Virus record (IMG/VR): IMGVR_UViG_3300017917_000477 | Location: 1 to 31,448 of that record | Length of the DNA stretch: 31,448 nt | DNA from: a virus | Reading direction: 5' to 3' (one strand) | In this document: piece after piece, positions 58 to 31,080 of the stretch | Numbering within the stretch: position 1 is the stretch's first letter | Layout of the letters: each line of letters starts with the position of its first letter | Translations under genes and position numbers: made by a program | The notes under the pieces: model-generated | What the model was told of the DNA's origin: nothing | Database searches by the model: none | The model's input: only the letters and a program-made list of their open reading frames with translations

Positions 58-663
58 TTATGCGGCGCTGAGATTAGTTAAAGTTTGGATACGCAATGTA
101 TAATCAATTTGTATCTGTCTGTTTAAGCTCTTTTGCACCGGGTGAAAAATTACGTGTGTAATCAAACGCAAATCTGTTGCTGAACCGTTCCAGGTTTTTA
201 AGCCTAGTTCGTCAAACACAAATTCACCATTAAAATTAGTACTGTTATCAAATGCTTGTTGTCCAGCTGGTTCACCATAATCCAACAAACACTGAACTAA
301 AATGTCTGTATACACTTTACCAGTGGTATGTAACACGGTCATTTTGTTGTTAGCTGGATCTGTATTAGCTGCTGAGTTGTCATCGACTACCTTAGCATAA
401 GTTTCGTTGTACAAGTCAGCATTTTGACCTGTGGTATTTGGGGGCAAGTATGTGATAACTCCAGTTGGGTCCACACTTGAACCACCATTACCAAATGCCA
501 TTAAGTAAATCCATCCTAGATCTCTATCACTTAGAGTCTGTGCCATAGAGATACTGATGTTTTCATAATGAATGGCGTTCTTTTTATCTACAAATACTTC
601 GCCTGTTTCAGGATTAAAAATCTTAACAAATCCTTCAATTTTGGCTAACCCGGGTTGAATCAT
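58..663 (-). CDS. Virion-associated protein, 201 aa, with EGFVxIFxPETxEVFV N-terminal motif
   Basis: The protein has 201 residues, no signal peptide and no membrane segment. Its N-terminus carries a motif (residues about 10-25, EGFVKIFNPETGEVFV) followed by N-A-I-H-Y-E-N-I-S and an A-Q-T-L-S-D-R stretch; from memory of marine T4-like phages this arrangement recurs in small structural proteins encoded beside tail and fibre genes. The start is fixed by GGAG at 672-675, eight bases upstream and inside the preceding 48-aa ORF, with an ATGA overlap that suggests translational coupling. The preceding ORF repeats the same motif. Its place directly after the giant protein, in the late block, points to a baseplate or fibre-attachment role; this is inference from position and motif only. 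It does not resemble T4 gp8 in any way I can see. Confidence 0.75.
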   Translation of the reverse strand: MIQPGLAKIEGFVKIFNPETGEVFVDKKNAIHYENISISMAQTLSDRDLGWIYLMAFGNGGSSVDPTGVITYLPPNTTGQNADLYNETYAKVVDDNSAANTDPANNKMTVLHTTGKVYTDILVQCLLDYGEPAGQQAFDNSTNFNGEFVFDELGLKTWNGSATDLRLITHVIFHPVQKSLNRQIQIDYTLRIQTLTNLSAA

Positions 664-823: not shown

Positions 824-3800
824 TTACAGCCCCCTTAAGAACCTTGCGGCCTGTGTGTTTGTGTCTTGTAATGCTACTCCATCACTTGGTGTTCCAGCGC
901 CAGGAGCATACCATGTTACGCCTTGGCGTACCAAAATATTAATTTCATATCCGCTTGTTGGAGCAGTATCAAACTCTATTTGAACCGGTCCACTACCAAT
1001 AATTGTGTAATTGCCAACTTGGCGTGTTCCACCTACATATACCTCAACTGCTTCATCAATAATGGTACTGTCTTCACTGTCCAAATTGATATCAGTGGTA
1101 AACACAGTAGTTACTGAATCTCCCATAAATGCAGTATTGTTAATGTAGTTTTGAAATTCTTCTGGCATCAAATTACCACGACCGAGATTATAAACAATAG
1201 AATCAACTGGATGGTCCGCAATTGCTGTGCCAGCTGTTCCTCTTAACAAACCACTTACGGTATTGTTTACAATGTCTCGCTCACGATACATAATACGTTC
1301 ACCGTTAACTGTTAATACTCCCCAGATATTACTGTCCAGTGCTGGTTCGTCAAGAGCGTTGGCATTAACCACATACACTATATCATCTGTAGAGTTTAAG
1401 TCTTGGGACAATAATGTTGTAGTTGCCGGTGTAATGCGATAAGTGGCTTGAACTCCACGCATATCCTGGAATATACGGAATGCCATTGCTTCAGGAACTA
1501 CACTGTCAGTAAATTCGGTTACCATTAGTACATCTGTTGTATCCATAATACCTGCAGATAGTACTAGTTCTTCCCCAACTATAGTAAAGTCTTGTCCAAA
1601 GAATAATCGGCGACCTCCGCCGGTGGTGTTAGTATTGAGTGTGACTATTAATCTTTCTGGATCTGTGATGATTCTTCTAAGTTGTATGTTGTTAACTGCA
1701 ACCGTTGTGCCTGCAGAATAATCAAAACTACCCGGTGTGTTTGAAACAGTAGCTGAGTCAAAGTCTGTATCATCATACCCTTCTACTATTACTGTACCGG
1801 TGATAATTGGTCCAACAAATACCTGTGTTAAAATATTTTGTTGGCGTGTATCATTCCATGTAGTTACTGTAATGACGTCGCCGTTAACAGGAACCAAGCC
1901 TTTTGTTGGATCAAATACTATTTGATTTCCATTAACTTGACATTGAGTATTTGTAGTTACTGCAATTAAAATTTTGTCACCAATTTCGGGCGTGTTTGCA
2001 AATATTATTTCGCGAGGAGTAGAACCATCATATGGTTCTACTGTAAAGTCAACACCTAATGTTTGCGGAATATCATTGATATAGACTAGTACTTCATTGT
2101 CTGCAATTAAAGCCTGACTAAATCCAAGTCGATTTGGTAATTCATATGCTGTACTACCGTCACCTATGTAATCAATACCGGCTGCCGTTCTAGCTCGGGC
2201 ACCATTAACGGTAACAATCATATTAGCAGGATTAGTATAAGCTAAACTATAGTCTAGGTCATAGGCATAAATTCCAGTTTGACCGTTGATATATTGAATT
2301 GCTGGAGCACTCCAACTATAGTTAACAGTTGTGCTATCAATTGTGGTTGGGCCAAACACATAGACAACTACCACGTCATTGCTTGTAAAACTTGATCCAA
2401 ACGTAACTGTTGTAGTATTGTCAGAACCTTCAGCAAATGTTAAGTTAGTATAAACTTGTCCGTCGACCCAAGCTACTATTTCTTGAATTTGACTATACAA
2501 TACAGGAACGGTCACAGATGATCCAGCTGTGCCATTGAATATTTCTCGATACAACTGATTGCCGCCGCCAACTCCATATGCGGTACCGATCAGGGTGTCT
2601 CCTACGTTGCATCCTGAAGTAACTGTGAATGTTTTGGCAATCCAGTCCACGGTAAAGTTTATTCCGGCTCCTAGTAATTCAATGCCAGTGGTTTCATTAA
2701 CCAGTGAACCTGATACAAAGAATGGTACTTGATCATACCAAAGACTGAAATCATAAGTCTGTGGTAGTTGATCAACTACTATACCGTAAGAGTATGTTGG
2801 GAAACCGTGTCCGTTGACTGCCCAATCGCTACCAGGACGTGTGTAAACACGTAAGTCTAATGTATCAAACTCACTGCCCGGGATTAATTCTTCAGGAGCA
2901 TGACTAGAGTAAGTGTCAATATATGCACCACCGTCAACATTAACATCTGTAGCTCTTGTGCCAAGGAATGGATCAAGGTAAGCACTCTCATAAATTGCAT
3001 CTAGAATCGCAGGGTCATAAGTCGGTCGGCCTTCTGGTCCATAACTGATGTTGTCGTATGGATTGATATCAAAGTTACCAACATCATATCCTGTATTTTG
3101 ACTGAACAATGGGCCAAACACTTGTACACCTGGGTAATCTAACCCATCAATTAACAATGGCAAGTCAAGTCCAATTTCATTAGGACCTGGTGTATAATAA
3201 CCACGTGTACGATCAACACCGCTTAGGGTACTAGGATTAACCAATAGCCAATCTTCAGGATTAAATGTTGCGCTTTGTACTTCAGAACTATCGCTGCTGT
3301 CAGCTTGCCAAACTACATTGTTGTATCTAACTTGTGTGCCATTGGTGTAGATTACATTGGCTTGCCAATCTACAATGTTACTATTATACTGATAACGGTC
3401 ATACTTGATTGTAGTTTTGATTGATCGAATTAAGTCGTTGCCCATTACAGCCGATGCTCTAGCACCTACACCGTTGCCACCAACAAAAGTTATTACAGCT
3501 TCTGTTAGATATCCTGATCCTGGATTGATAATATTAATACCAATTACCTGACCGGCTGTATTAATTACTGCGGTCATTTCGGCTGGTGTAGTTGATACAC
3601 CAGATACCACTACCTCGGGCTCTACAGTATATCCTTGGCCGCCGTCAATAATGTTAACGCCCTGAATACTTAAAAGATAGTTGTTATACCATGCGTTCCA
3701 TGGTGTGTCATCCCATATTTCTGCATTTGCTGGTGTGTCGCTGTTGTTGTTTGCACGACCGGTTCCAGCAGCATCACTTTGAGTGTATGGTAATAAAATT

Positions 3801-6800
3801 GGACTTACATACTGAGGAATTACCAAATCAAGATTGTAATATGCCGGGTTATCAAAGTCTGAAATCATGCCAGCATAAGAATCTAAACCATTGTAGGCTA
3901 GGTTGAATTCTCGAACCTGCACGTGATAAGGTTTAACTTCTTGTAGATAGTCCAGAACAAACTCTTGATTGTCTTGTCTATATATTTGGAATGGCACTAG
4001 TTCACGAATCTTATGTTCAACATCAATCAAACTAGTCTTAATCAACCACTCTGGAGCTTCCTGTTCGCTTAAAATAAAATTAAACATCAAGATTAGTAGT
4101 CTATTGCGTTCAATAGCTAGTTCATCAATTAGTAATTCTTCGTTGATTGCTTGAATAATTTTACGTGTTTCAATCACTGGTTCAGCATCAAAATACTGAG
4201 CGTCAAACACTTCAACATCAAAGCCAAACAATCCCACAGAATAATTCCATAGTTTTTCACTAAATTCTATAGTTCCATCTTCAAGTCCAACACGATCCCA
4301 CCCTGTATCTGTACGTAGATAAATTTCAAACTTACCTTGTGCATTTGAGGTTACTTTAACGCTGTCGCCGACAGCCACAGACAATGTTGCCAATGATGCA
4401 TAATTTAAAACTTCAGCCACTGGTATTATTGCACTGTTATATCCTGGCATGTACCAGTTAATATGATTCCAATATTTGCGAGTGTCGTATGTTTGAACAC
4501 GAGTAAGTTGTACCACATTTGGTGAACCTAACAATGACGATCCTGCAATTACAGTGTAGATTGTCCAGAGGCCGCCGTTGGTGCTATCACTAACAATAAG
4601 ATATTTGTAACCCAACGGAACTTCAGATAAATCCTGATACCCAAGTTGCTCAATATTGTCTAACCTCATGTTCCACTCGCCGCTTGATACAGTTGGCTCG
4701 GGTTCCTGACTGTTTAACAGTGTGAATTTTCTTGTTTCAACAATTGGATAATTCTTCAGTATTGAATTAGCACGAACAAGATAGTTTTCGAGTGCTTCAT
4801 AACGATTCAAGAACATGCTTTGTCTTGGTCGGAATTGTACACCATATTGTTCTGGAGGGCTTAACGTTGCATCCGGAACTTTAGCTCCTACTGTGTTGAC
4901 TCCGCAAAAACTGTCTTGAAGTTTGCGATACAATCCATCACTTAAGAAACTGTCAGGGCGATCCTGGGCGATTAGTTCAAACTCTGTGTGAATATTATCT
5001 GTGGTATATTCACGATCATATTCAATGTGTAATATTGTATCTTGGGCTGAGATGAAATCAAGTCCATTATAGATAGCCACAGTACTTGAATTTAAAGCCG
5101 CAATATAAGGAATTCCACTGCTTCTTGGACTTTCAATATATCTTGAAATACCAATGGTACTCAATGTTTTGCCAGCTTTAGTATCAACTGTGTCAACACC
5201 TGTGACCCAGAAATAATATTGAGTGGCAAATGTCCCTTGAGGGGTCAAACGACTTGATACTGCATAGCTTGAAGTATCCAATGGAGTTCCTTGGCCAGTG
5301 TAGGAATCTGGAGGAGTTGAGCTTTCAATCCATTGATAGATGTCTATACTTGATCCAGGGAACAACTGCCCCCATCTGCGACTAGCATAAACAATGTCGT
5401 CTTGATTTGGATCAATAAATCTTGCTCGATCTATGTTCCACCATATTTCACCTACATGATTCTCTGCCCAGAAGTTACCATTGTTATTGGTTGATCCAAC
5501 ATTGTATTTGGCTGGATCTGCTACGCTGATGTAATCAATGTTTTGACGTGCTGCTCCTAATATTTTTCCTTGTAACGGATTAATAAAATCAAAGAAATGT
5601 GTTTTGCTTGATTGTAACTTATCATACATAAACACAGAATTTAACAAATAAACATCAACCACTGGTTGTTGCTGATGAATTACTGTCCAGGCCCGTCTAC
5701 GTTCGGTGTTGTTAAACACAGCCACACGTCCGTAATTTAAATTACTTAACGTGCTGTCTCCAAGATCACTACCGGGCGCACCAACTAGCAATCTACCGGT
5801 GGTATAATTTACGGCTGTGCCCCAACGGTCAAGAGATCCAACCTCAGAATCATATATTTGTTGTCCAAACACAAACTTTCCTGGATTAGATACAGAATCA
5901 GTTGCACTTGGCAAATAGTCAAATGTATAAACTGCACCACTTTGTATCACAGTTGAACTAAACGGTGTACTGTTGTCATCAAAATAAGTAGATCCACTAT
6001 CAAATGTCACTGGCTCATAGAGATTACCACCAGGGGCACCTACTACTAAATTATCAGCTTCGCTGTCAATAAACAACGATTTTCCAAATTCTGCGCTTGG
6101 TACTGGATTTGGACTGGTGATTGTTTGTGTGTAAGCGTACAAATCAAAACCAAGATCCGCATACGCTGTTCCACTGGTTCCGGGCAAAACTGTTAATCGA
6201 TTAAATTGATCTGCGGCTGCTGTGTTAATAACACTAATAGTCAACTTCCCATCGGTAGATATTGCTGTAATGTTTGGAATATTTGCAGCAACTATAGCAT
6301 CGGCTAATCCTTCAACAGTGTTGTCTGGTGCGTTTGGTACAGCAACTGGTGTATTCTGAATACGAATAGTATCTCCTGGAGTTAATGTAGGATCTACTTC
6401 TGTAGATGTTATAACTCCATACACACGAGCTTGATTTACTCTTCTGTCAACACTGCCGGCCCCGGGAACAATTGATCCATCCAATGGGGCGCCAACGTAT
6501 ATACTGCAATTATTTGGACAGATGTCTACAGTTTCTCCAAAGTTTGCAGATTCAAATACTGCATTGGCTGGGAAATTTTGTATTAGATTGAATATGTTAC
6601 TTTCAAATTGTAGGATATCACCGACTGATAGTGTTACATTTTCCAACACTACATCGGAACCAGAAACAGTAAACTGCCCATTGATAAATTGACCAGCGTT
6701 GTCTAAGAATGTGTTGTTTAACAACACGCTAACTGGGGATTGGAACCCAGATGGTAATGCATAGGTCAAGGTGGTTGGATCTGTAACAATAACTCTTGTT

Positions 6801-9800
6801 ACGCTACGATCAAATGTGTATACGCTACCAGCATCGCTCGTTGTATCAACTGTGTCATTTGGACAACCAATAATCACTTGTCGACCGTCGGTGGTAGTTG
6901 CAACACTTTGACCAAATCTTGCATCTGATGCTAACCCACCAACAGTAATAGTATCAACTGGTGTAAAATAAGTTTTTGAAGTAACTACAATCGCTGCGTC
7001 ATTAGCCGGAGCAGTAGTAAACGTGATGTTGCCACTAGCCCAATTATAGTCAATATAAGGACGTTGTAGATCTCCATTAACTGTAACAGAGAAAGAGAAT
7101 ATATCATTGTTATCAACAGTTTTTAAATAAAGATCAACGTCAAACACTGTTGTACTGCCATCACCTGTGTATGTTTCTGCAGTTTTACGTGTAATGACTA
7201 ACTTTAGGCCCCGGGCTGGTGTATTGGTTAATGCAACGTTTGTTCCTGAGACTGTATAATCAACACCCAAGGTCAACAACTGATTATTTAGAACTACGTT
7301 TAATTGTTCGTCTTCAGTTATTACGATTGACTCGCTGTAATTGTACAAGAAAGTAATACCATCAGTGGTATATGACACTGCCTGTTCTTCAAGGTCCACT
7401 CTTCCAAACGCATATACTTTGTTTTCAGCTGGGGCTCCTATATACATCCAACGTTCATCACGGCTTATGGCAACTGAATATCCAAACTCTGATGTTTCTG
7501 CATAATCACCAAACGGTGCAACTAACAGTTGTCGTTGTTCAAAAGCATTGGTGGTGTTGCCGCGATAAATGACACTAGCATAACCAGTTTGACTGTTGCT
7601 TTCACTTGCTCCTGCAACACACCACTCTTGATTTCCAATGTCAACAGCATTTCCATAACCTTGTGTGTCTGTTGCACCTAACAACAAAGTTGAACTTTGT
7701 GCATATTTGTTGTTATTGTCTCGTAGATACGGATATAATGCTCCAGTACCATTAAATGATGGAGCTCCGACAAGAGCAATAATATTGTCAACTCCTTGTG
7801 CGATACTTGATCCATATCCAGTATTTGAAACTAAAATATTTGGTTCCAAAGATGTATTGGAAACAAACGGCGATTGTTTTTCAATTACTTCCCACAATCC
7901 TGCGCCGTTGTTATCTACCCATGCTCGTGCTCCTGGTAATAACGAATTAACATATGGCAAGTTAACCACATCGCTGGCCTGTGACACTCTCATTGTTTGT
8001 AAACTGTAGGCGATTCCTTGAAGTGCAATATTTGATAATCCATTTAGTATAGTAATTGGTAATTCAACTACTATACTTGTTGCGCCGGGCACTGCTAGGA
8101 CACGATACACGCCGTTGATTTGTTCATTTACAAAACGTATTACAATAATACTATCAACGCTCAATCCGTGAGGTTTACTAAACGTAATTGTGCTGGTAGT
8201 ATCAAGATTTGAGGAAATATTTAAAATTCTACCAGGTACACCTGTGCATCTGTAAATATTCCAATCATAGCTGTTGCTCTTGGCTGCCCAGACTGTGGTT
8301 CCTATACCAATGGTATCTAACACCGCTGGAGAAATTCCTAACTCGCCTAGCAATGAAAATACTGTAACATCAACATCATCAAGATTTACATAGCCGGCTG
8401 TTGGTAATGCTGCATCTTGTACATTGGTTAATGTAGTTGGTAATATATCAGTGGATGTAATTTTGTAGCTTTCTCTCCAGAGATCGTTGAGCAATACAGT
8501 TTGATCAGCTTGGCTAGTTTGTTGAGGTTCAACAACCTGAATCAGTGCCGGATCAGATTCTAACAATGCTTCATTTAACTGAAGTTCAATAAAACTACGG
8601 TTGGCATTGGCACCATACGTGGCACGTTGAATTGCCCAATTTTCAAATACATCATATTCTGCAACTTCTTTACCAAGATTAGCATTGCCTAACAAACGTA
8701 CACTTTGTATAGTTCCTTTGTTCTTTAAAAATTGTTGATAGACATTTACCTGACTAATATCATCAAGATTTAATGCTGTCATATATTCTCTTGGTCTAAA
8801 ACCTATTAGGCCATAGCTCAACAAATCTTGATCGCTCTCAAGATTTGCAGTGTTAGTATTATAACTGTTTGCTAGTTGGTTGGCTTTGTTAGGTACGTTC
8901 TCTAACAGACCTCCTTGAATCTTAGTATAATCACTCTTAACCCAATTGCTATATTGGAATTCAACTGCTGGTTGAACAATAGTTTGAGCTGACCAATAAT
9001 TGTTCTTATAAAGAACAATTTCTCCTTTTGCATACTTACGATTTGGCTCCCAATTTTTAATGGTGGCACGATTGTTAAGTATGAAACCTTGTGCATCAAC
9101 TTGACCATTCCAATCTGCGCTCACTGCTGCAATCATATTGATACGGCTCTGGCGTGCACCAGTGGCCGGATTATAAATTAAATCATTAAAAATACTTACA
9201 TTATCAAGTACTACCATACTTTCATAGCTGGTATATTTTAAATCTAAATATGAAATTGTTTGATTGCTTAAACTTGATATTTTAAATGTATTTTCAAAAC
9301 GATCTACAACCAAATCTCTCACAGGTAATGTTGTTCTGTTTTGATCTAAAATAAGATTTTCAGGAGTTTGTGCAACCACACTATCAACAATCGCGCCAGC
9401 CTTGTATGCAGTCAATGATGTTGCTGTTGGATTGAGATTAATAACACTTCCAGTTTGCCAACCTTGATTGGCCCAATATAAAAATTCCTGAGCCATTTGA
9501 TTCCAGTTTAACGTGCGACCATTTTCTCTTCCATCAAAAACCAATCCTTGGCTTTCTAGCAATGCTCCGTAGCTTAACAAGAAATCAACCACAACAGTTT
9601 GATTAGTAAACACATATCCGTAAGGTACTTGTACTACATCTTTTGAATATTCGTTGGGCACTCGAACAGTTGTTCCGCCCGACTCAATGGTAATTTTTGT
9701 ACCAGATGTTCGACTGGCTAAAATTTCAAAATACGGATTGGTAATACTGTATCCATAAACAGCATATCCATCATCAACAACTTGAACAATTACACTACTA

Positions 9801-12800
9801 TAAACAATTCTTTCAAAAGGTTGATTTTTGTACAACAATAAATTATAACTCTCGTCAGGCAAGAGCAAACTAGAATTTAAACTGTTTGGGCTTGATTTTT
9901 CTGTGTAAATTTTAAGATATTGTTTGTCAGTAAAGCTACCCATACGATAACATAATCTTACATCGAGGTTGGCTAAATCTGCAGTTAATCTTGTTGAGCT
10001 GTCTGTGCCTAATAGTTGATTGTAATCGACTATCCAGTCAATATAACTGGCTTTGCTTACTCCATTGCCGTAGACTTCAACACCATTAGCATCTAATCTA
10101 TAACGGTCATTATAGAGATACTGATCGAGTTCTGTGTCAAACTTATACAAGTCTCTATCAACAAACAATGAGAAGAATTCTGCTGGACGAGTCAATGCCA
10201 ACAGTCTCATAATAGCAAATGGATAACTTGAACTCTTGAACCACGTAGCTTCTACAGGACCACCATCACCAAAAGTCCATGATTTTTGAAACTGTGACGA
10301 GTCGTACAATCCGACTACTGTGTCAAACGGACTTAATAGTTGTCCTTCACTGTTGGTTGGAATAACGTTAGATAACCCAGGGCGTGCATATTGTGGGAGA
10401 ATATACTCACCGGCCGGATCGGCAACACGTCCTAGTTCTAAATCATCCCATAGAACCAAGTTACCACTGGTATATGGAGCTGATCCATAGATATCTTCCC
10501 ACCATGATGGTTCTTCTGTAAAACCTAACATTTCCCACGGGCGTGTATCTGGGTAATCAGTATCATAGAAATATCTATAAATGCCGCGCCAGGCGCCAAT
10601 CAGCAAAGGAGTTTCTGCTAAAATGTTATCTAAACTAGATAACTTGTTGCCAGCAGCACTATAGTTCCAAGTAAATTCATTAGTGGAACTATAATCTTGT
10701 TGTTTATAATCTAACTTGTTCCAACCAACCCAACTTAAAAAGTCTGTAGATAGTATTTGATTGATTTCAGACAGTGTGTAATCTGTGGTTCGGAATTGTC
10801 CGGGGATTACTTCTGTGGCTGGCAAAGGAATAGCCGATTTAATTTTTAAGTTATTGTAAATTCTAGTTTCAAACTCTAGCAACAGACTGTCTCGAAAATC
10901 GCCAAATGCAATAGTTTTACTACCATCATGACCCTGTATAACCAATGTTGGATTGATATAAGTTGTATCTAGATAGATCTGTGGTTTAAATGCAGGATAC
11001 AATCCAAGTTTAGTTGGAGTGTTGGGAACAAAGTTACCATACGTGGTTGCATATTCTCTAATAACAATAACATCGCCTACACTCAGTGGAGAAGTAATTG
11101 TCAACCGTGGGCCTTCTGTTGCAACAGTGTAATCGTATCCGTAGGTTAATAACTCATTGTTAACATACACTAGAACACTTTTATAGTTTGAACTTGTAAA
11201 GTCATAAGTGGTTGTTAAATCAAATACTGGAGTTGATATGGCAGTATATGTTGTTGTTGATTGAGTAAACACCGAGCTAGCCGGCAACATATCACTCCAG
11301 TAAAACGGATTCAATGATGTACGACCAACAGTTATGTCATTGATTATTGCAGTCAACATATCCGGAATAGAATAGTTGGTATAATCATTACGTACCGCTG
11401 TATCTAACAGTTGAGCTTTGAATTTTTCGTATTCTCTGCTGTTGTAATTTAACGCATTGAATATGTTGTATTGTTCACTGCGCATAAAATAACCAGCTAA
11501 TGTCATTGGTGAACTTTGTTGTAGAATATTTTCTCCATAAAGTCCAATGTTGCCAAGGTCTCGAGTGTTATTGGCACCGTTGATTGGTCCTACAATATCT
11601 TTGAGATTTTCGCCAATTGTTTCATAGTGTGATCGAATAGTACCTAGAGTAAATGTTCCGCTGTTTTCGTTCAATGGATTATTTTCAAGGTTAACTGGAA
11701 CTTGATAGAACGCAACTTTACTAATTTTATCACTGATAATATCAACTTCAATAACATCGTCGGGCGCAGCAATTTCAATATTGGAATTAATAGTTAACGT
11801 TGTAGTATCGCCGTTGACTGTGTAGGTATACTTTGTAGGATCAATAAATTTTCCCGACACATATACTTGAAGTGCTGGCAAAGGAGTTGACTCGTCAGCT
11901 GGCACATCCATAACTAGTGGATTGCCATTATAGATAAATCTAAATTGTTGTCTTGTAATACTTTTTGTAATTGCTGACTGCCAACCAATTTCTTTAATAA
12001 ATGTGGTTCTATCTTTGTATTCTCTAACAACACCTTGACTGATGTTTTCGGTAGAACTTACACTATCTTTGGTGTAGGTAAACGTATCGGTGTATAGATT
12101 ATTTTCAAATACAATATCTCCAACGTTAGCTAAACTTAGATATCTTAAAGGAAATCCTAGAACTAAATCCTTATTGCCAGTTGATGAGGCGTAAGAGAAC
12201 AATTTACTACCTGTAAAATTGGTACTTGGATATTTTACGCGATTACTAAAACTAACCCCACTTAAGTCATAAACATCAAACAACGGTGCTTGATTTGTTG
12301 CTGTTTTTTCTTGCGCTTGTATCCATTCTACTCCATCGTAGTAAAAACTCAAACCTTGTTGTTGTGCTCCACTCAGACAAACTACAGTTTGATCTACTAA
12401 CACTGTTGAATCACTTGCCGGTACTAAATTAATAATTGGTTGAGCAATCAGTGGAGGCACAGAATCTGGTACAATAAACTCTACTACATAAATTTTATTT
12501 CGAACTTGAGGATCAGAATCTGCTGCAAATATAACTCTAGAACCATTAATAAACGAATATCCATCTGTGCTGTAGCTAGTTGTTCCATTAATAGTACTCA
12601 ATGCATCTGTGGAGTTGAAATCAATAATGTCAACTGGTTGTTTTCCTTGGGTTCCAAAATTAAACAACTTGGTTCCAGCTCTAAATTCAATGATAGGACG
12701 TTTTGCACGGAAGTTATTATCCAACAATGCAACGCTATTATTGTATTCAGCTGTGGCATTGATTACGTCAATGTGGAACCAGCGGTTGCTGCGTGTCCAT

Positions 12801-14776
12801 GCATTAAGGTCGGGACTAGCGCGGTTGATTGTGAGATAATCAGGAATTTCAGGCTGATTTAAACTGGCATCATAATTTCCAATATCGTAACCGGTGCTGT
12901 CATAGGGTACAGTTGCACTCTGGGTATAAGTTTCAGGGGTCACAAAATTAGACACCGGAAGTAGTTTAATTGCAGTACCAACACCCTCAACATAATATTC
13001 TTGATTTTGATAACTACTAGGATTTACAGATCCAATGAATTGGACTTTTAATCCATTGGTGAATACAACTCCATTGGGACTGGTATAATTTTTCTTGTCA
13101 AGTATATCACTGATATCCAATGTATCAACCTGATCTTGATTGATTAGTTTGATGCGACCAAATATTCCTGGATCAGTTCCATCTTGATAATACAACGTAT
13201 CTTTTACGGCTGTTAATAAAGGAATTTGTTCAAAAAATCCCTCAGCATTTTTAAACCATTGAGTATTTGAATACTGTGTTCCGTACAATGTTGTAAATTT
13301 TTCTAATTCTGAAACAGATAGAATATCAACCAACTTGATATACTGAGAACCATCATCGGTGGTTACATATTGTATTTGCCAAACACTGTATCGTTTATTT
13401 GCTGGGACATCTGTGGTTTGATCAAACAGCGTAGTGTCATATGACCCAGGTCCACTTTGTACATTACCTACGTTTGGCAACGGATCAAATTGTGTAGTTA
13501 CTTGCCACCCACCATCTTGTGCATTTTCAATTTGATTCAAAAATACAATAGTTTTTCCGTTGAGCGAAGTGGTTCCATCAATGCCACCAGTTTGTTCTAT
13601 AAAGGGTACAACATATTGATTGTTAATTTCATTAAACTTAAGATCCGACACAATCAAATCCACTGTGCCAGCTGGTTTACCTGGTATGCTACCAATCGTA
13701 TCTAGCGTATAATAGAAATTTTGTGCAGTGGCCAATGGGACATTAAAAGTAACTGTGCCTAAATCTTCGCCGTTGTTAACAACTCCTAGCACATCTCTTG
13801 AACTGATATTTGGTGTTGCAGGAATACGTCCGTTAACTCCAGGGTCGGTTTGAATCCAGAATCCTGGGCCAGTTCCAGGAGTAGCATCAATGATATTGAT
13901 TTGCCCTTGCATATTAGGCTGAGTAGAATTTGCATAATACAAGGTGTCTGGTGCATCCTGAGGAACTACGAATGTGATTAATCCTTCGCTGATACCATTG
14001 TTAGTAACGCCAACATTGTATTGATTGTTTGTTCCAAGAGTAGGCGATGTTTTAATATACATCGGCAAATCTCTGTTGAGAATTAGATCAAACACATATG
14101 TGTTTCCTCGTACCAGTGTCAACGTTGGATTGTTTACATAATCAATCACGTAGGCACTAGTGCCTTGATTCGTTACACGAAAGTTAATAGTTTCTTTTTC
14201 ATTTTGTGCAACATTGAATGTGTAGTTGCCCCCTCTAACCAACGTTAAAGAAGGGTTTGTTCCAGGAACTCCACTAAATGAATATACTCCGTTAGATCGT
14301 GTTACATCAAAACTATCTGTGGTTGCTACTGCTTCGGCAAACACGTCAACAGAATCTGGGCCAGCTGGCAACCAGTAGTATTGATTAAAATTTACAAATT
14401 TATCAAAATCAACAAATGGATCCCAAGTATAGTATTCGCTCGTGTACAATCTGTCTGCGTTATTGGTAATAGATCCTTGAAGATTTAATGCATCTGTAAT
14501 ACCAGGATAGGTAATAGCATCATTAACGTTTTGTCGATCCTCACTTAGCAATACCACCCCAGGCTCAAGCTGATAATTGGTGCGAATGGCTGTGGGTTCT
14601 GTTACATAGTTTTCATCGGGATTTACACCAGGTCCAACTCTGCGTCCAACAAACCCTTGAATCTTTTTAAACTTAGGTTCTTGTACTAATTGATCAAGGG
14701 TTGCTCCGAGAAACTGTCGATTAGTAGAGGTTTGAAAAATCTCTGGTAAAAAATCTACGGTGCGTACTCTTGCCAT
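824..14776 (-). CDS. Giant baseplate/tail structural protein, 4650 aa, multidomain
   Basis: One uninterrupted frame of 13.95 kb. It lies directly after gp6, where T4 has gp7, and starts one base after the gp6 stop, with GGAG at 14786-14789. Approximate modules in order: N-terminal head (1-140) with D-F-L-P-E-I-F and G-R-R-V-G-P-G-V motifs that I recall from marine T4-like structural proteins; cupredoxin-like beta repeats (about 175-380) with T-L-V-R-G-x-T-Y; a Trp/Tyr-rich core (about 1090-1790); a CBM5/12-like W/Y module (about 1900-1955); an FG-GAP beta-propeller (about 2315-3010) with V-G-A-P repeats; a conserved alpha-rich part (about 3540-3650); GGxGY repeats (about 3710-3775); a second W/Y module (about 3800-3850); a H-A-P-E-E-L motif (about 3955); then many V-x-V-N-G beta-hairpin repeats to the end (A-A-R-F-L-R-G). 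No signal peptide or transmembrane segment. Probably a wedge/fibre protein replacing gp7 and perhaps fibre genes; function is inferred from position. Confidence 0.88.
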   Translation of the reverse strand: MARVRTVDFLPEIFQTSTNRQFLGATLDQLVQEPKFKKIQGFVGRRVGPGVNPDENYVTEPTAIRTNYQLEPGVVLLSEDRQNVNDAITYPGITDALNLQGSITNNADRLYTSEYYTWDPFVDFDKFVNFNQYYWLPAGPDSVDVFAEAVATTDSFDVTRSNGVYSFSGVPGTNPSLTLVRGGNYTFNVAQNEKETINFRVTNQGTSAYVIDYVNNPTLTLVRGNTYVFDLILNRDLPMYIKTSPTLGTNNQYNVGVTNNGISEGLITFVVPQDAPDTLYYANSTQPNMQGQINIIDATPGTGPGFWIQTDPGVNGRIPATPNISSRDVLGVVNNGEDLGTVTFNVPLATAQNFYYTLDTIGSIPGKPAGTVDLIVSDLKFNEINNQYVVPFIEQTGGIDGTTSLNGKTIVFLNQIENAQDGGWQVTTQFDPLPNVGNVQSGPGSYDTTLFDQTTDVPANKRYSVWQIQYVTTDDGSQYIKLVDILSVSELEKFTTLYGTQYSNTQWFKNAEGFFEQIPLLTAVKDTLYYQDGTDPGIFGRIKLINQDQVDTLDISDILDKKNYTSPNGVVFTNGLKVQFIGSVNPSSYQNQEYYVEGVGTAIKLLPVSNFVTPETYTQSATVPYDSTGYDIGNYDASLNQPEIPDYLTINRASPDLNAWTRSNRWFHIDVINATAEYNNSVALLDNNFRAKRPIIEFRAGTKLFNFGTQGKQPVDIIDFNSTDALSTINGTTSYSTDGYSFINGSRVIFAADSDPQVRNKIYVVEFIVPDSVPPLIAQPIINLVPASDSTVLVDQTVVCLSGAQQQGLSFYYDGVEWIQAQEKTATNQAPLFDVYDLSGVSFSNRVKYPSTNFTGSKLFSYASSTGNKDLVLGFPLRYLSLANVGDIVFENNLYTDTFTYTKDSVSSTENISQGVVREYKDRTTFIKEIGWQSAITKSITRQQFRFIYNGNPLVMDVPADESTPLPALQVYVSGKFIDPTKYTYTVNGDTTTLTINSNIEIAAPDDVIEVDIISDKISKVAFYQVPVNLENNPLNENSGTFTLGTIRSHYETIGENLKDIVGPINGANNTRDLGNIGLYGENILQQSSPMTLAGYFMRSEQYNIFNALNYNSREYEKFKAQLLDTAVRNDYTNYSIPDMLTAIINDITVGRTSLNPFYWSDMLPASSVFTQSTTTYTAISTPVFDLTTTYDFTSSNYKSVLVYVNNELLTYGYDYTVATEGPRLTITSPLSVGDVIVIREYATTYGNFVPNTPTKLGLYPAFKPQIYLDTTYINPTLVIQGHDGSKTIAFGDFRDSLLLEFETRIYNNLKIKSAIPLPATEVIPGQFRTTDYTLSEINQILSTDFLSWVGWNKLDYKQQDYSSTNEFTWNYSAAGNKLSSLDNILAETPLLIGAWRGIYRYFYDTDYPDTRPWEMLGFTEEPSWWEDIYGSAPYTSGNLVLWDDLELGRVADPAGEYILPQYARPGLSNVIPTNSEGQLLSPFDTVVGLYDSSQFQKSWTFGDGGPVEATWFKSSSYPFAIMRLLALTRPAEFFSLFVDRDLYKFDTELDQYLYNDRYRLDANGVEVYGNGVSKASYIDWIVDYNQLLGTDSSTRLTADLANLDVRLCYRMGSFTDKQYLKIYTEKSSPNSLNSSLLLPDESYNLLLYKNQPFERIVYSSVIVQVVDDGYAVYGYSITNPYFEILASRTSGTKITIESGGTTVRVPNEYSKDVVQVPYGYVFTNQTVVVDFLLSYGALLESQGLVFDGRENGRTLNWNQMAQEFLYWANQGWQTGSVINLNPTATSLTAYKAGAIVDSVVAQTPENLILDQNRTTLPVRDLVVDRFENTFKISSLSNQTISYLDLKYTSYESMVVLDNVSIFNDLIYNPATGARQSRINMIAAVSADWNGQVDAQGFILNNRATIKNWEPNRKYAKGEIVLYKNNYWSAQTIVQPAVEFQYSNWVKSDYTKIQGGLLENVPNKANQLANSYNTNTANLESDQDLLSYGLIGFRPREYMTALNLDDISQVNVYQQFLKNKGTIQSVRLLGNANLGKEVAEYDVFENWAIQRATYGANANRSFIELQLNEALLESDPALIQVVEPQQTSQADQTVLLNDLWRESYKITSTDILPTTLTNVQDAALPTAGYVNLDDVDVTVFSLLGELGISPAVLDTIGIGTTVWAAKSNSYDWNIYRCTGVPGRILNISSNLDTTSTITFSKPHGLSVDSIIVIRFVNEQINGVYRVLAVPGATSIVVELPITILNGLSNIALQGIAYSLQTMRVSQASDVVNLPYVNSLLPGARAWVDNNGAGLWEVIEKQSPFVSNTSLEPNILVSNTGYGSSIAQGVDNIIALVGAPSFNGTGALYPYLRDNNNKYAQSSTLLLGATDTQGYGNAVDIGNQEWCVAGASESNSQTGYASVIYRGNTTNAFEQRQLLVAPFGDYAETSEFGYSVAISRDERWMYIGAPAENKVYAFGRVDLEEQAVSYTTDGITFLYNYSESIVITEDEQLNVVLNNQLLTLGVDYTVSGTNVALTNTPARGLKLVITRKTAETYTGDGSTTVFDVDLYLKTVDNNDIFSFSVTVNGDLQRPYIDYNWASGNITFTTAPANDAAIVVTSKTYFTPVDTITVGGLASDARFGQSVATTTDGRQVIIGCPNDTVDTTSDAGSVYTFDRSVTRVIVTDPTTLTYALPSGFQSPVSVLLNNTFLDNAGQFINGQFTVSGSDVVLENVTLSVGDILQFESNIFNLIQNFPANAVFESANFGETVDICPNNCSIYVGAPLDGSIVPGAGSVDRRVNQARVYGVITSTEVDPTLTPGDTIRIQNTPVAVPNAPDNTVEGLADAIVAANIPNITAISTDGKLTISVINTAAADQFNRLTVLPGTSGTAYADLGFDLYAYTQTITSPNPVPSAEFGKSLFIDSEADNLVVGAPGGNLYEPVTFDSGSTYFDDNSTPFSSTVIQSGAVYTFDYLPSATDSVSNPGKFVFGQQIYDSEVGSLDRWGTAVNYTTGRLLVGAPGSDLGDSTLSNLNYGRVAVFNNTERRRAWTVIHQQQPVVDVYLLNSVFMYDKLQSSKTHFFDFINPLQGKILGAARQNIDYISVADPAKYNVGSTNNNGNFWAENHVGEIWWNIDRARFIDPNQDDIVYASRRWGQLFPGSSIDIYQWIESSTPPDSYTGQGTPLDTSSYAVSSRLTPQGTFATQYYFWVTGVDTVDTKAGKTLSTIGISRYIESPRSSGIPYIAALNSSTVAIYNGLDFISAQDTILHIEYDREYTTDNIHTEFELIAQDRPDSFLSDGLYRKLQDSFCGVNTVGAKVPDATLSPPEQYGVQFRPRQSMFLNRYEALENYLVRANSILKNYPIVETRKFTLLNSQEPEPTVSSGEWNMRLDNIEQLGYQDLSEVPLGYKYLIVSDSTNGGLWTIYTVIAGSSLLGSPNVVQLTRVQTYDTRKYWNHINWYMPGYNSAIIPVAEVLNYASLATLSVAVGDSVKVTSNAQGKFEIYLRTDTGWDRVGLEDGTIEFSEKLWNYSVGLFGFDVEVFDAQYFDAEPVIETRKIIQAINEELLIDELAIERNRLLILMFNFILSEQEAPEWLIKTSLIDVEHKIRELVPFQIYRQDNQEFVLDYLQEVKPYHVQVREFNLAYNGLDSYAGMISDFDNPAYYNLDLVIPQYVSPILLPYTQSDAAGTGRANNNSDTPANAEIWDDTPWNAWYNNYLLSIQGVNIIDGGQGYTVEPEVVVSGVSTTPAEMTAVINTAGQVIGINIINPGSGYLTEAVITFVGGNGVGARASAVMGNDLIRSIKTTIKYDRYQYNSNIVDWQANVIYTNGTQVRYNNVVWQADSSDSSEVQSATFNPEDWLLVNPSTLSGVDRTRGYYTPGPNEIGLDLPLLIDGLDYPGVQVFGPLFSQNTGYDVGNFDINPYDNISYGPEGRPTYDPAILDAIYESAYLDPFLGTRATDVNVDGGAYIDTYSSHAPEELIPGSEFDTLDLRVYTRPGSDWAVNGHGFPTYSYGIVVDQLPQTYDFSLWYDQVPFFVSGSLVNETTGIELLGAGINFTVDWIAKTFTVTSGCNVGDTLIGTAYGVGGGNQLYREIFNGTAGSSVTVPVLYSQIQEIVAWVDGQVYTNLTFAEGSDNTTTVTFGSSFTSNDVVVVYVFGPTTIDSTTVNYSWSAPAIQYINGQTGIYAYDLDYSLAYTNPANMIVTVNGARARTAAGIDYIGDGSTAYELPNRLGFSQALIADNEVLVYINDIPQTLGVDFTVEPYDGSTPREIIFANTPEIGDKILIAVTTNTQCQVNGNQIVFDPTKGLVPVNGDVITVTTWNDTRQQNILTQVFVGPIITGTVIVEGYDDTDFDSATVSNTPGSFDYSAGTTVAVNNIQLRRIITDPERLIVTLNTNTTGGGRRLFFGQDFTIVGEELVLSAGIMDTTDVLMVTEFTDSVVPEAMAFRIFQDMRGVQATYRITPATTTLLSQDLNSTDDIVYVVNANALDEPALDSNIWGVLTVNGERIMYRERDIVNNTVSGLLRGTAGTAIADHPVDSIVYNLGRGNLMPEEFQNYINNTAFMGDSVTTVFTTDINLDSEDSTIIDEAVEVYVGGTRQVGNYTIIGSGPVQIEFDTAPTSGYEINILVRQGVTWYAPGAGTPSDGVALQDTNTQAARFLRGL

Positions 14777-27836: not shown

Positions 27837-28850
27837 ATGAGTCTATTTAAAAAAGCACTACTATTCACCGATATACATTTTGGCCTAAAGTCAAACAGCC
27901 TGGTTCACAATCAAGATTGTGAAGCATTTGTAGATTGGGCTATTCAGTTGGGCCAGGAACAAGGTTGCGAAACTGGATTCTTTCTTGGGGACTGGCATCA
28001 TCATCGAGCTAGTTTAAATCTGCAAACTTTGAATTTCAGCCTTAGAAGTTTGGAAAAACTAAGTCGGGCGTTTGATCGCTTTTATTTTATTCCTGGAAAT
28101 CATGACTTGTATTATCGAGACCGGAGAGACATACACGGTGCTGAGTGGGCTCGACACATTCCCAATATCATTGTGGTCAATGACTGGTTTCAAGACGAAG
28201 ATGTGGTAATTGCGCCGTGGCTCGTTGGCGATGACCACAAACGTATTCCAAAACTCAATGCTCGATATGTGCTTGGGCATTTTGAGTTGCCACACTTCAA
28301 AATGAATGCCATGGTTGAAATGCCCGACCACGGAGAACTACAAGCTGAACACTTCGATGGTGTTGGAGAGGTGTTTTCTGGGCACTTCCATTTGCGTCAA
28401 CAACGACGCAACATCAATTATATTGGCAATGCATTTCCACATAACTTTGCTGATGCCGGTGACGACAAACGTGGCTGTACAGTTGTTGAGTGGGGAGAGA
28501 AGCCCACGTATCATGCTTGGCCCGGGCAACCGTTATATAAAGTCACTAAATTGAGCACAGTAATTGATTCAGCTCCAACTATACTTTTACCAAACATGCA
28601 TGTGCGTGTTGAATTGGATATTGACATTAGCTACGAAGAAGCAACTTTTATCAAAGACACGTTTGTTAAAGATTACAATTTACGTGAGATGGCATTGATA
28701 CCTGTTAAGAGCACCGCAGTTGACACCGACATGGCTCCTGGCGAAGTTAGATTTGAATCAGTAGATCAGATTGTCACTGATCAGATTACAAATATATCCA
28801 GCGAATTTTACGATCCAAAATTATTGTTACAAATCTATCAAAATCTATGA
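27837..28850 (+). CDS. 47: Recombination endonuclease subunit gp47 (SbcD/Mre11-like)
   Basis: This is the nuclease subunit of the gp46/gp47 complex, which resects DNA ends for recombination-dependent replication and takes part in host DNA breakdown. All calcineurin-type metallophosphoesterase motifs are present: D12-I-H14, G-D52-W-H54, G-N88-H89-D90, G147-H148 and G-H183-F-H185. Length 337 aa matches T4 gp47 (339 aa). It begins 12 bases after the gp55 stop without an obvious Shine-Dalgarno site, and its TGA overlaps the gp46 ATG (ATGA), so the two subunits are likely translated together. A TATAAT sequence at 27825-27830 sits in the short spacer but has no suitable -35. Confidence 0.95.
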   Translation: MSLFKKALLFTDIHFGLKSNSLVHNQDCEAFVDWAIQLGQEQGCETGFFLGDWHHHRASLNLQTLNFSLRSLEKLSRAFDRFYFIPGNHDLYYRDRRDIHGAEWARHIPNIIVVNDWFQDEDVVIAPWLVGDDHKRIPKLNARYVLGHFELPHFKMNAMVEMPDHGELQAEHFDGVGEVFSGHFHLRQQRRNINYIGNAFPHNFADAGDDKRGCTVVEWGEKPTYHAWPGQPLYKVTKLSTVIDSAPTILLPNMHVRVELDIDISYEEATFIKDTFVKDYNLREMALIPVKSTAVDTDMAPGEVRFESVDQIVTDQITNISSEFYDPKLLLQIYQNL

Positions 28851-30610
28851 TTCATATTAAAAACTTAACTGTTCGAAATTTTATGAGCGTGGGCAATGCC
28901 ACGCAGGCCATTGACTTTGATCGCAAAGATCTTACATTGGTTTTAGGAGAGAATCTAGACCTTGGTGGAGATGGCTCACGCAATGGCACAGGTAAAACTA
29001 CAATTATTAATGCGTTAAGTTATGCGTTGTACGGCAATGCTCTTTCAAATATTCGCAAAGACAATCTAGTAAACAAAACCAATGGCAAGAACATGCTTGT
29101 GAGTTTGGACTTTATTGTTGCTGGCAAAGAATACAGAATCGAACGTGGACGTAAACCTAATGTGCTCAAGTTTTATGTCAACAATGAAGAACAAGCAGCT
29201 AGTGACTATGCTCAAGGTGACAGTCGTGAAACACAAGAAGCTATCGAAACAACCATGGGCTTGAGTCATGACATGTTCAAACACATTATGGCTTTGAATA
29301 CCTATACCGAACCGTTCTTGAGTTTAAAAGCCAACGATCAACGAACACTAATTGAACAGTTGTTGGGTATTACCATGCTCAGTGAACGTGCTGATCGCAT
29401 CAAAGAACTAAACAAAGCAACCAAAGATTCAATCACACAGGAAGAGTTTAGAATACGTGCTGTAATTGAAGCCAACAAACGCATTGAGGAACAGATTGAA
29501 AGTCTCAAACGCAGACAAACCATGTGGGTTAATAAACATGCCGAAGACGTACAAAAACTACAACTCGCACTGGATGAACTTCAGAAAATCAACATTGATG
29601 AAGAGATCCAGGCGCACAAGGAACACTCAGCGTGGGATCAACGCCGCAAGGATTACAATGACCTCCAAGGTGCCATCAGCCGCGCTAAGTTGGAGGTCCA
29701 ACGTGAAGAGAAGTCTATTAAAAAATTGGAGGCGGAGATTGCCTCGCTCCAGAGCCACCAGTGCCATACGTGCGGTCAGCCGTTCCACGACGAGAAGCAC
29801 CAACAAGTTTTGGAGAATAAACAGAAAGATTTGGCAGATGCGCGAGAGAAGTGCCAGCAAGATAGCGCCACAGTATCAGAAATACAGACTGCCATCACCC
29901 AGCTGGGCGAAATAGGTCGTCCACCTAAGATGTTCTATGACAAAGAAGAAGATGCTATTTCTCATAGAGCTACACTGGCTGGGCTACAGGCACAGATTGA
30001 GATCAAACGTACAGAAACTGATCCGTACGAAGAACAAATTGTTGAAATGGCACAACAGGCTTTGCAAACCATTGACTACGATGAACTAAATCGCCTTACA
30101 CGTTTGCAAGAGCACCAAGAGTTTTTGTTGAAGTTGCTGACATCCAAAGACAGTTTTATTCGTAAAAAGATCATTGAACAGAATTTAAGTTACTTGAACA
30201 GCAGACTCACACATTATCTTGATCGCATTGGATTGCCACATACAGTTGTATTCCAAAACGATCTAACTGTGAGTATTGAAGAATTAGGGCGCGAACTGGA
30301 TTTTGACAATTTGAGTCGTGGAGAACGCAACAGACTTATTTTGAGTATGAGTTGGGCATTCCGTGATGTTTGGGAAAGTTTATACGAACCTATCAACGTT
30401 TTGTTTATTGACGAAATGATCGACAACGGCATGGACACTCAGGGTGTTGAAAACAGTCTAGCACTACTTAAGAAAATGAGTCGTGATAGACATAAGAGCA
30501 TTTGGTTAGTAAGTCACAAAGACGAACTTGCTGGGAGAGTAGAGAACATTCTCAAAGTGGTCAAAGAAAACGGATTTACATCATATAATACAGATATAGA
30601 GATTGCTTAA
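28847..30610 (+). CDS. 46: Recombination endonuclease subunit gp46 (SbcC/Rad50-like ATPase)
   Basis: This is the SMC-type ATPase partner of gp47. Walker A is G43-S-R-N-G-T-G-K50-T; coiled-coil arms follow (about 170-300 and 315-400), joined by the zinc-hook C306-H-T-C309-G-Q; then the ABC signature L489-S-R-G-E and Walker B V-L-F-I-D522-E523, with the switch His in W-L-V-S-H-K. Length 587 aa compares with 560 aa in T4. The frame is intact and overlaps gp47 by four bases. The hook segment (about 29640-29880) is visibly richer in G+C (about 48-57% per 60-base line by my count) than flanking lines (about 38-42%) and uses different codons, which hints at a recombined patch. Confidence 0.96.
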   Translation: MIHIKNLTVRNFMSVGNATQAIDFDRKDLTLVLGENLDLGGDGSRNGTGKTTIINALSYALYGNALSNIRKDNLVNKTNGKNMLVSLDFIVAGKEYRIERGRKPNVLKFYVNNEEQAASDYAQGDSRETQEAIETTMGLSHDMFKHIMALNTYTEPFLSLKANDQRTLIEQLLGITMLSERADRIKELNKATKDSITQEEFRIRAVIEANKRIEEQIESLKRRQTMWVNKHAEDVQKLQLALDELQKINIDEEIQAHKEHSAWDQRRKDYNDLQGAISRAKLEVQREEKSIKKLEAEIASLQSHQCHTCGQPFHDEKHQQVLENKQKDLADAREKCQQDSATVSEIQTAITQLGEIGRPPKMFYDKEEDAISHRATLAGLQAQIEIKRTETDPYEEQIVEMAQQALQTIDYDELNRLTRLQEHQEFLLKLLTSKDSFIRKKIIEQNLSYLNSRLTHYLDRIGLPHTVVFQNDLTVSIEELGRELDFDNLSRGERNRLILSMSWAFRDVWESLYEPINVLFIDEMIDNGMDTQGVENSLALLKKMSRDRHKSIWLVSHKDELAGRVENILKVVKENGFTSYNTDIEIA

Positions 30611-30651
30611 AAAATCTGCGGTATTGCAACAACTTTGATAACTAATAGTCC

Positions 30652-31080
30652 ATGGTATGGCTATATGAATCTAAACAAGTTGATGTTTTACCCGAAGACT
30701 GTGTGGGATTTGTTTACTTGATAACAAATACTATCACAGGACGCAAGTACATTGGTAAAAAATTAGCAAAATTTTCAAAGACAACATACAAAGTAGTAAA
30801 ACTAAAGAACGGCAACAAAAAGAAGAAAAAAATCAGAAGTAAAATTGATTCAGACTGGCAACTATACTATGGCTCAAGCCCAGAACTAAGCAAAGATATC
30901 GAACAACTAGGCATAGAAAACTTCTCAAGAGAAATACTTTATTATTGTAAAAGCAAGTCTGAATGTAGTTACATTGAGGCCCGAGAACAATTTGCACGCA
31001 AAGTATTAGAATCAGACGACTACTACAACGGACACATTCAAGTTCGTGTACACGGTAGTCACATAAAAAACAAAATTTAA
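30652..31080 (+). CDS. SegE-like GIY-YIG endonuclease
   Basis: A 142-aa protein with a GIY-YIG nuclease fold: G19-F-V-Y22 and K32-Y-I-G35 stand for the GIY and YIG strands. The following features fit SegE-type phage endonucleases: a Lys-rich stretch (N-G-N-K-K-K-K-K-I), S-D-W-Q-L-Y-Y-G-S-S-P-E-L (about 68-80), F-S-R-E-I-L, and the E in Y-I-E-A-R-E-Q-F, with Y-Y-N-G-H near the end supplying the usual catalytic Glu and Asn. It is free-standing, 41 bases after gp46, on the same strand, and there is no clear Shine-Dalgarno site. Such genes often act as homing endonucleases that cut near their insertion point in gene-lacking relatives; some relatives may have other roles. It is directly followed by the structured non-coding region. 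Confidence 0.82.
   Translation: MVWLYESKQVDVLPEDCVGFVYLITNTITGRKYIGKKLAKFSKTTYKVVKLKNGNKKKKKIRSKIDSDWQLYYGSSPELSKDIEQLGIENFSREILYYCKSKSECSYIEAREQFARKVLESDDYYNGHIQVRVHGSHIKNKI

Follow-up and report, generated by a model that had tools for sequence, protein, structure and literature searches.

The 31,448-base virus record IMGVR_UViG_3300017917_000477 from IMG/VR, analyzed here at its full length and called the window below, is occupied over its left half by one intact open reading frame (ORF) without an internal stop, which encodes a giant virion protein and immediately follows a gp6-type baseplate wedge gene. Within this protein, the sequence profile and the predicted fold identify a seven-bladed integrin-type beta-propeller interrupted by small inserted domains (Table 1). 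The original prediction, made from the sequence alone, had described at least six blade-like repeats at residues 2315–3010, and these residues do map to window positions 5750–7830. The closing strand carries the domain on to residue ~3035 (nucleotide 5672), and a hidden Markov model (HMM) of the blades and the structural model both give seven blades instead of six.

Table 1. Features of the giant gene and its gp6-type neighbor, in window coordinates
Feature	Positions	Strand	Basis
Giant virion protein, 4650 amino acids	824..14776	minus	ORF call; phrog_10938, 1024 bits; gp7 gene position, directly after gp6
gp6-type baseplate wedge gene, 1143 amino acids	14778..18209	minus	phrog_10646, 940 bits
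N-side conserved scaffold, residues 1240-2300, common to jumbo phages	7877..11059	minus	Sequence searches
C-side conserved scaffold, residues 3030-3700, common to jumbo phages	3677..5689	minus	Sequence searches
Predicted seven-bladed FG-GAP_2 propeller with inserts, residues 2318-3035	5672..7825	minus	Pfam profile, homologs, predicted structure, blade HMM
Blade 1, residues 2318-2368	7673..7825	minus	Model and blade HMM
Blade 2, residues 2369-2421	7514..7672	minus	Model and blade HMM
Blade 3, strands A-C, residues 2428-2460; strand D ~2603-2610	7397..7495	minus	Model and blade HMM
Blade-3 insert, residues 2461-2602, two tandem hairpin domains (cores 2488-2532, 2559-2604)	6971..7396	minus	Model, hairpin profile; PF03906 in 5 homologs
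Blade 4, strands A-C, residues 2618-2663	6788..6925	minus	Model and blade HMM
Blade-4 insert, residues 2664-2726, one hairpin domain	6599..6787	minus	Model and hairpin profile
Blade 5, strands A-C, residues 2743-2781; CxxxC in A-B loop	6434..6550	minus	Model, alignment, blade HMM
Blade-5 insert, residues 2782-2879, ~98-residue alpha/beta module	6140..6433	minus	Model and alignment
Blade 6, residues 2894-2974	5855..6097	minus	FG invariant in 50/50; weak blade-HMM score, 6.7 bits
Blade 7, residues 2982-3035	5672..5833	minus	Model and blade HMM
Hairpin unit outside the propeller, residues 1203-1239	11060..11170	minus	Hairpin profile, 5e-10
Hairpin unit near the C-terminus, residues 4231-4271	1964..2086	minus	Hairpin profile, 1.7e-9
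Hairpin unit near the C-terminus, residues 4579-4614	935..1042	minus	Hairpin profile, 4e-5
CBM5/12-like stretch, residues 3804-3825	3302..3367	minus	PF02839, whole protein 25.5 bits, slightly below the cut-off (26.2)

An integrin-type propeller with inserts inside its blades

Sequence evidence for the propeller comes from the FG-GAP_2 profile (PF14312; Pfam curated cut-off, 23 bits), which scored 35.7 bits over the whole protein and 50.8 bits over four stretches of the segment. Homologs of the segment were retrieved from 80 IMG/VR loci, and 50 diverse ones were aligned; 49 of these 50 matched FG-GAP_2 at E<=0.01 (best, 2.1e-19), and the FG glycines were invariant or nearly so throughout. The classic FG-GAP profile (PF01839; cut-off, 22.1 bits), which the original prediction had named, remained below threshold, with 14.1 bits at best in the segment and no match in a search of the window's own record. 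A profile built from the alignment placed integrin alpha-M first among PDB sequences, with a weak E value of 0.007, while phmmer searches of PDB with the whole giant protein returned no match and profiles of the propeller flanks returned no useful one. The AlphaFold2 model of residues 2230–3060, computed with the 50-homolog alignment, was confident (predicted local distance difference test [pLDDT], 89.7; predicted template modeling score [pTM], 0.89), and integrin alpha subunits made up 49 of the top 50 rows when it was compared with PDB by Foldseek (E of ~1e-10, probability of 1.00, ~796 aligned columns). The target TM score did not exceed 0.63, a value reduced by the inserts. Searches of bacterial and archaeal genomes found no relative of the propeller, and thus no cellular donor was identified.

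The blade HMM located seven blades at spacings of 53, 57, 190, 125, 151, and 88 residues; having been built from this family, it serves to place the blades and is not independent proof of the fold. Strands A to D could be read from the model in each blade. The DxDxDG calcium loop typical of integrins was found nowhere in the window, and any DxDx[DN]G motif was present in only 4 of the 50 homologs. Where integrins would be expected to carry a calcium loop, the A-B loop of blade 5 instead holds a CxxxC motif (residues 2753 and 2757; window positions 6506–6520) whose cysteines are conserved in 50/50 and 49/50 sequences and might form a disulfide or bind a metal.

Hairpin modules had been proposed to sit between the blades. 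The inserts are real, but their place is different: judged by the model strands, the extra sequence of blades 3, 4, and 5 sits in the C-D connections, inside the blades and not strictly between them. Since A-B and C-D loops share one face by propeller topology, these fixed inserts should protrude from one side of the propeller. The hairpin domains form one repeat family, with profile-profile E values of 2.4e-12 to 7.6e-6 and with the profile of the first unit retrieving the second at an independent E value of 9e-12. This family includes the two copies near the C-terminus, as had been suspected from their likeness. The blade-5 module is extended by a further unit in some homologs.

Five homologs also matched PF03906, the N-terminal domain of the T7 tail fiber (best, 3.9e-7). 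This match raises the alternative of a docking platform, in which the hairpin domains, like the T7 fiber-anchoring domain, would hold tail fibers or whiskers and the fibers rather than the propeller would recognize the host. Membership of the inserted and C-terminal hairpins in one family is in keeping with this idea, as is the short-tail-fiber dock loop of the propeller in phage SU10 (PMC9509320). However, compact relatives such as locus L246 have no such propeller inserts, and the T7 domain belongs to a fiber and not to a dock; we regard this alternative as rather improbable.

A fixed slot in a baseplate protein

The scaffolds on either side of the propeller are homologous, by blastp over both, to the giant proteins of RaK2, PA5oct, Atu_ph07, SCTP-2, and other jumbo phages (phrog_10938 type), which occupy the same place after gp6. 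The interval between the scaffolds measures 860 residues in the window, whereas it is 122 residues in RaK2, 299 in PA5oct, 414 in SCTP-2, and 1530 in Atu_ph07, in each case without a blade. The propeller thus occupies a fixed slot of the giant-protein backbone, and because that slot is empty or differently filled in the jumbo relatives, the scaffold must be able to work without a propeller. In Atu_ph07 (L083:9699-14768), the ~1530 residues are rich in GxGYxxxPxVxxxGG repeats. The SCTP-2 slot gave the impression by eye of a LamG/ConA jelly roll, which we do not claim, as Pfam found no family there.

The propeller is carried by about 220 IMG/VR loci. All seven blade positions were present in 158 of 160 loci selected through either their propeller or their C scaffold (two sets that overlap in a few contigs), and the other two appear to be truncated contigs. 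Among 63 more distant loci reached through the C scaffolds of PA5oct and Atu_ph07, 60 had four to seven blade positions and three had none; the SCTP-2 C scaffold used as a query found nothing. When 38 C scaffolds were placed in a tree, the 32 rows with a propeller grouped as one clade (support, 100/98), with PA5oct, SCTP-2, RaK2, Atu_ph07, L260, and L255 outside it. Given that this tree is midpoint rooted and that several propeller-less rows sit on long branches, a single gain of the propeller is the simplest reading.

That the giant protein belongs to the baseplate, as originally proposed, is supported by gene order and by one product record. A same-strand gp6 homolog lies upstream of the giant gene in 78/78 and 40/40 loci with enough sequence. 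The giant gene of PA5oct is flanked by gp6 and a gp10-like gene, and the record of the giant protein bears an electrospray ionization tandem mass spectrometry mark. T4 has the gene order 6-7-8-9-10 (record NC_000866), so that in the window and in these 118 loci the giant gene stands in the gp7 position, directly after gp6. The gp7 identity does not follow from this position, because no sequence link was found and the scaffold model is of low confidence. None of the gp7 Pfam domains PF21427, PF21456, and PF21428 was detected in the giant protein at E<=1, and hhalign against T4 gp7 (from the same T4 record) gave no significant match; a 16-residue "KGT/KGI" match was not significant, and homology could not be established by sequence. 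A predicted model of scaffold residues 1240–2300 reached a pLDDT of only 57.5 and a pTM of 0.31, and we give no weight to its fold search, which yielded no match at E<=0.001. It is by gene order alone that homology to T4 gp7 may be proposed.

Beyond the gp6-type gene, a 124-amino-acid gp25-like gene is followed by hub- and spike-like genes, as judged by eye and from gene order. Downstream of the giant gene, at window positions 58–663, lies a gene for a 201-amino-acid protein (phrog_11259) whose homologs follow the giant gene in 62/80, 67/80, and 44/63 loci; this recurrent adjacency suggests a possible partner of the baseplate protein.

Variation of the inserts among relatives

Within the clade of the window, blade spacings range from 185 to 297 residues between blades 3 and 4, from 147 to 270 between blades 5 and 6, and from 51 to 128 between blades 2 and 3; a spacing of 249 residues between blades 6 and 7 occurs in one member. 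At one extreme, the slot is filled in L246 by seven blades without interruption (spacings of 45 to 79), and L261 has inserts of intermediate size. At the other, 764 to 864 residues separate detected blades in L216, L241, and L248, and the slot of L250 is similarly very long (1283 residues). Matches to CBM5/12 carbohydrate-binding modules fall within the long propeller interruptions of L216 and L250. Across these relatives, the same closed fold has thus taken up distinct modules at distinct junctions. Having both compact and interrupted propellers at one locus allows the insertion of domains into a closed repeat fold to be studied. Whether the compact form came first was considered as well, but it could not be established as the ancestral state, since L246 and L249 nest between interrupted forms with weak support. 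Several hundred residues divide the propeller after blade 2 in L216 (L216:6506-10165) and L250 (L250:6071-10102), an interruption far larger than any in the window.

Comparison with known propellers

Propellers of this fold are used by human integrins to grip their ligands, and in some integrins a further domain (alpha-I) interrupts the propeller between blades 2 and 3. The window shares with integrin alpha-V, alpha-5, and alpha-M the seven FG-GAP blades, and these are its best PDB fold matches. It differs from them in having no DxDxDG loops, in placing its inserts in blades 3, 4, and 5, in an identity of only ~11%, and in being a phage virion protein without thigh, calf, or membrane parts.

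The interrupted propeller had been called unusual, which holds only in part. The nozzle of phage SU10 (T7 gp12 type) is likewise a seven-bladed phage-tail propeller with small beta domains inserted, namely immunoglobulin-like domains between blades 2 and 3 (PMC9509320), so that interruption as such is not unique. However, SU10 is a short-tailed phage, whereas the window encodes a contractile baseplate of the gp6/gp25 type, which places it outside the nozzle class, and the SU10 nozzle was not among the leading structural matches of the window propeller. Two further propellers are known from phage baseplates. The seven-bladed phiKZ gp131C and the five-bladed phi11 Gp45 both sit at the baseplate periphery, the former as a proposed and the latter as a supported receptor binder (PMC4901313). 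Unlike the propeller described here, they are separate peripheral proteins and are not embedded in the wedge backbone, and neither appeared in the top 50 Foldseek folds.

Cyanophage S-MbCM6 (L114:1-19848) encodes a 7022-amino-acid protein annotated as gp8 baseplate wedge that carries FG-GAP_2 (138 bits) together with YHYH, two LamG domains, and a reelin-like repeat, but no scaffold relation was found (it was not among the matches to residues 560–2230) and this phage has another gene annotated as gp7. Stand-alone phage FG-GAP_2 propellers include H6WG31 of S-TIM5 (407 amino acids, 262.7 bits, annotated as a virion structural protein) and a separate 393-amino-acid "hemagglutinin" of Atu_ph07; these are short genes of their own, without inserts of the window's kind. 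Phage precedents therefore exist. No record with the same architecture was found among 50,697 phages at the sensitivity used, and FG-GAP propellers in phage baseplates were not described in the open-access literature searched. What is of interest here is that the slot is fixed, that the uncultured clade is broad, and that insertions are nested. A fold known for ligand binding, most familiar from animal integrins, here forms part of the backbone of a baseplate protein from a phage lineage represented in this analysis by metagenomes only.

An enzymatic propeller that cleaves or modifies host surface polymers is, in our estimate, very improbable. The compact relative L246 has a weak Lactonase match (17.9 bits; cut-off, 21.7), and phiKZ gp131C has been discussed as a possible cell-degrading enzyme (PMC4901313), but no catalytic family exceeded its cut-off in the window and the nearest folds are the non-enzymatic integrins.

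A possible role in adhesion or docking

Taken together, these data make adhesion or docking, by a head on the baseplate wedge, the most likely role. In the mechanism we propose, to which we would give about an even chance, the seven-bladed FG-GAP_2 propeller in its backbone slot would form a rigid, exposed platform of the baseplate, with small plug-in domains emerging from blades 3, 4, and 5; a wedge arrangement like that of T4 would give six such platforms. The platform would bind a host-cell surface structure (glycan or protein) or dock a tail fiber that does so. Likeness to the window was 50.5% for the blades and 43.8% for the inserts, against 63.0% and 60.0% for the two flanks, and in 25/25 relatives the blades and inserts were less like the window than both flanks, as would be expected of an exposed, diversifying module. 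CBM5/12-like modules are found in the giant protein itself (PF02839, below the cut-off) as well as inside the propeller of relatives. The faster divergence, the optional presence of the propeller across phages, and these CBM-like neighbors favor an exposed, host-facing role, and a baseplate propeller has been tied to receptor binding in phi11 Gp45, with the same proposed for phiKZ gp131C (PMC4901313).

Several points weigh against this interpretation. Faster divergence is also compatible with relaxed constraint, and the 25 comparisons, all made against a single reference, are not independent. The canonical integrin Ca2+ loops are absent. In addition, no full-length member of the window's clade lacks the propeller, as would be expected just as much of a structural role. 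Such a role is the main rival: the propeller may be a rigid block of the wedge that makes contacts between wedges or to the sheath, braced by its inserts and binding no ligand. The SU10 nozzle serves tail architecture with a comparable interrupted propeller (PMC9509320), and the window model is one compact rigid unit. Nevertheless, jumbo relatives with the same scaffolds lack the propeller, and the propeller diverges faster than the scaffolds, so that we consider a purely structural hub unlikely, though less so than the docking platform raised above.

If adhesion is indeed its role, an uncultured lineage of large phages may have built an adhesion head into the backbone of its wedge protein, by capturing an integrin-type propeller once into a fixed slot that then became an acceptor for binding modules (hairpins, CBM5/12, and the several-hundred-residue inserts of relatives). 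We offer this scenario tentatively, as somewhat less probable than the mechanism itself. It would mean that recognition is not confined to tail fibers but is nested around the baseplate and evolvable there. A fixed slot with phage-specific contents also provides a testable way into host recognition in phages that cannot yet be grown.

Additional features of the window

A second variable region lies near the N-terminus of the giant protein (residues ~137–555; window positions ~13100–14370). It is missing from the jumbo relatives, in which blast alignments jump from residue ~136 to residue ~555, and its repeats are cupredoxin/YHYH-like by eye. This region probably draws the ~200 Synechococcus phage records obtained as matches, as these vanish once it is left out. 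A search for psbA in 11 long contigs found none, and typical psbA-bearing cyanophages are therefore unlikely. On the plus strand, at window positions 27837–31080, an SbcCD/gp47-gp46-like pair and a 142-amino-acid GIY-YIG-like endonuclease were recognized by eye.

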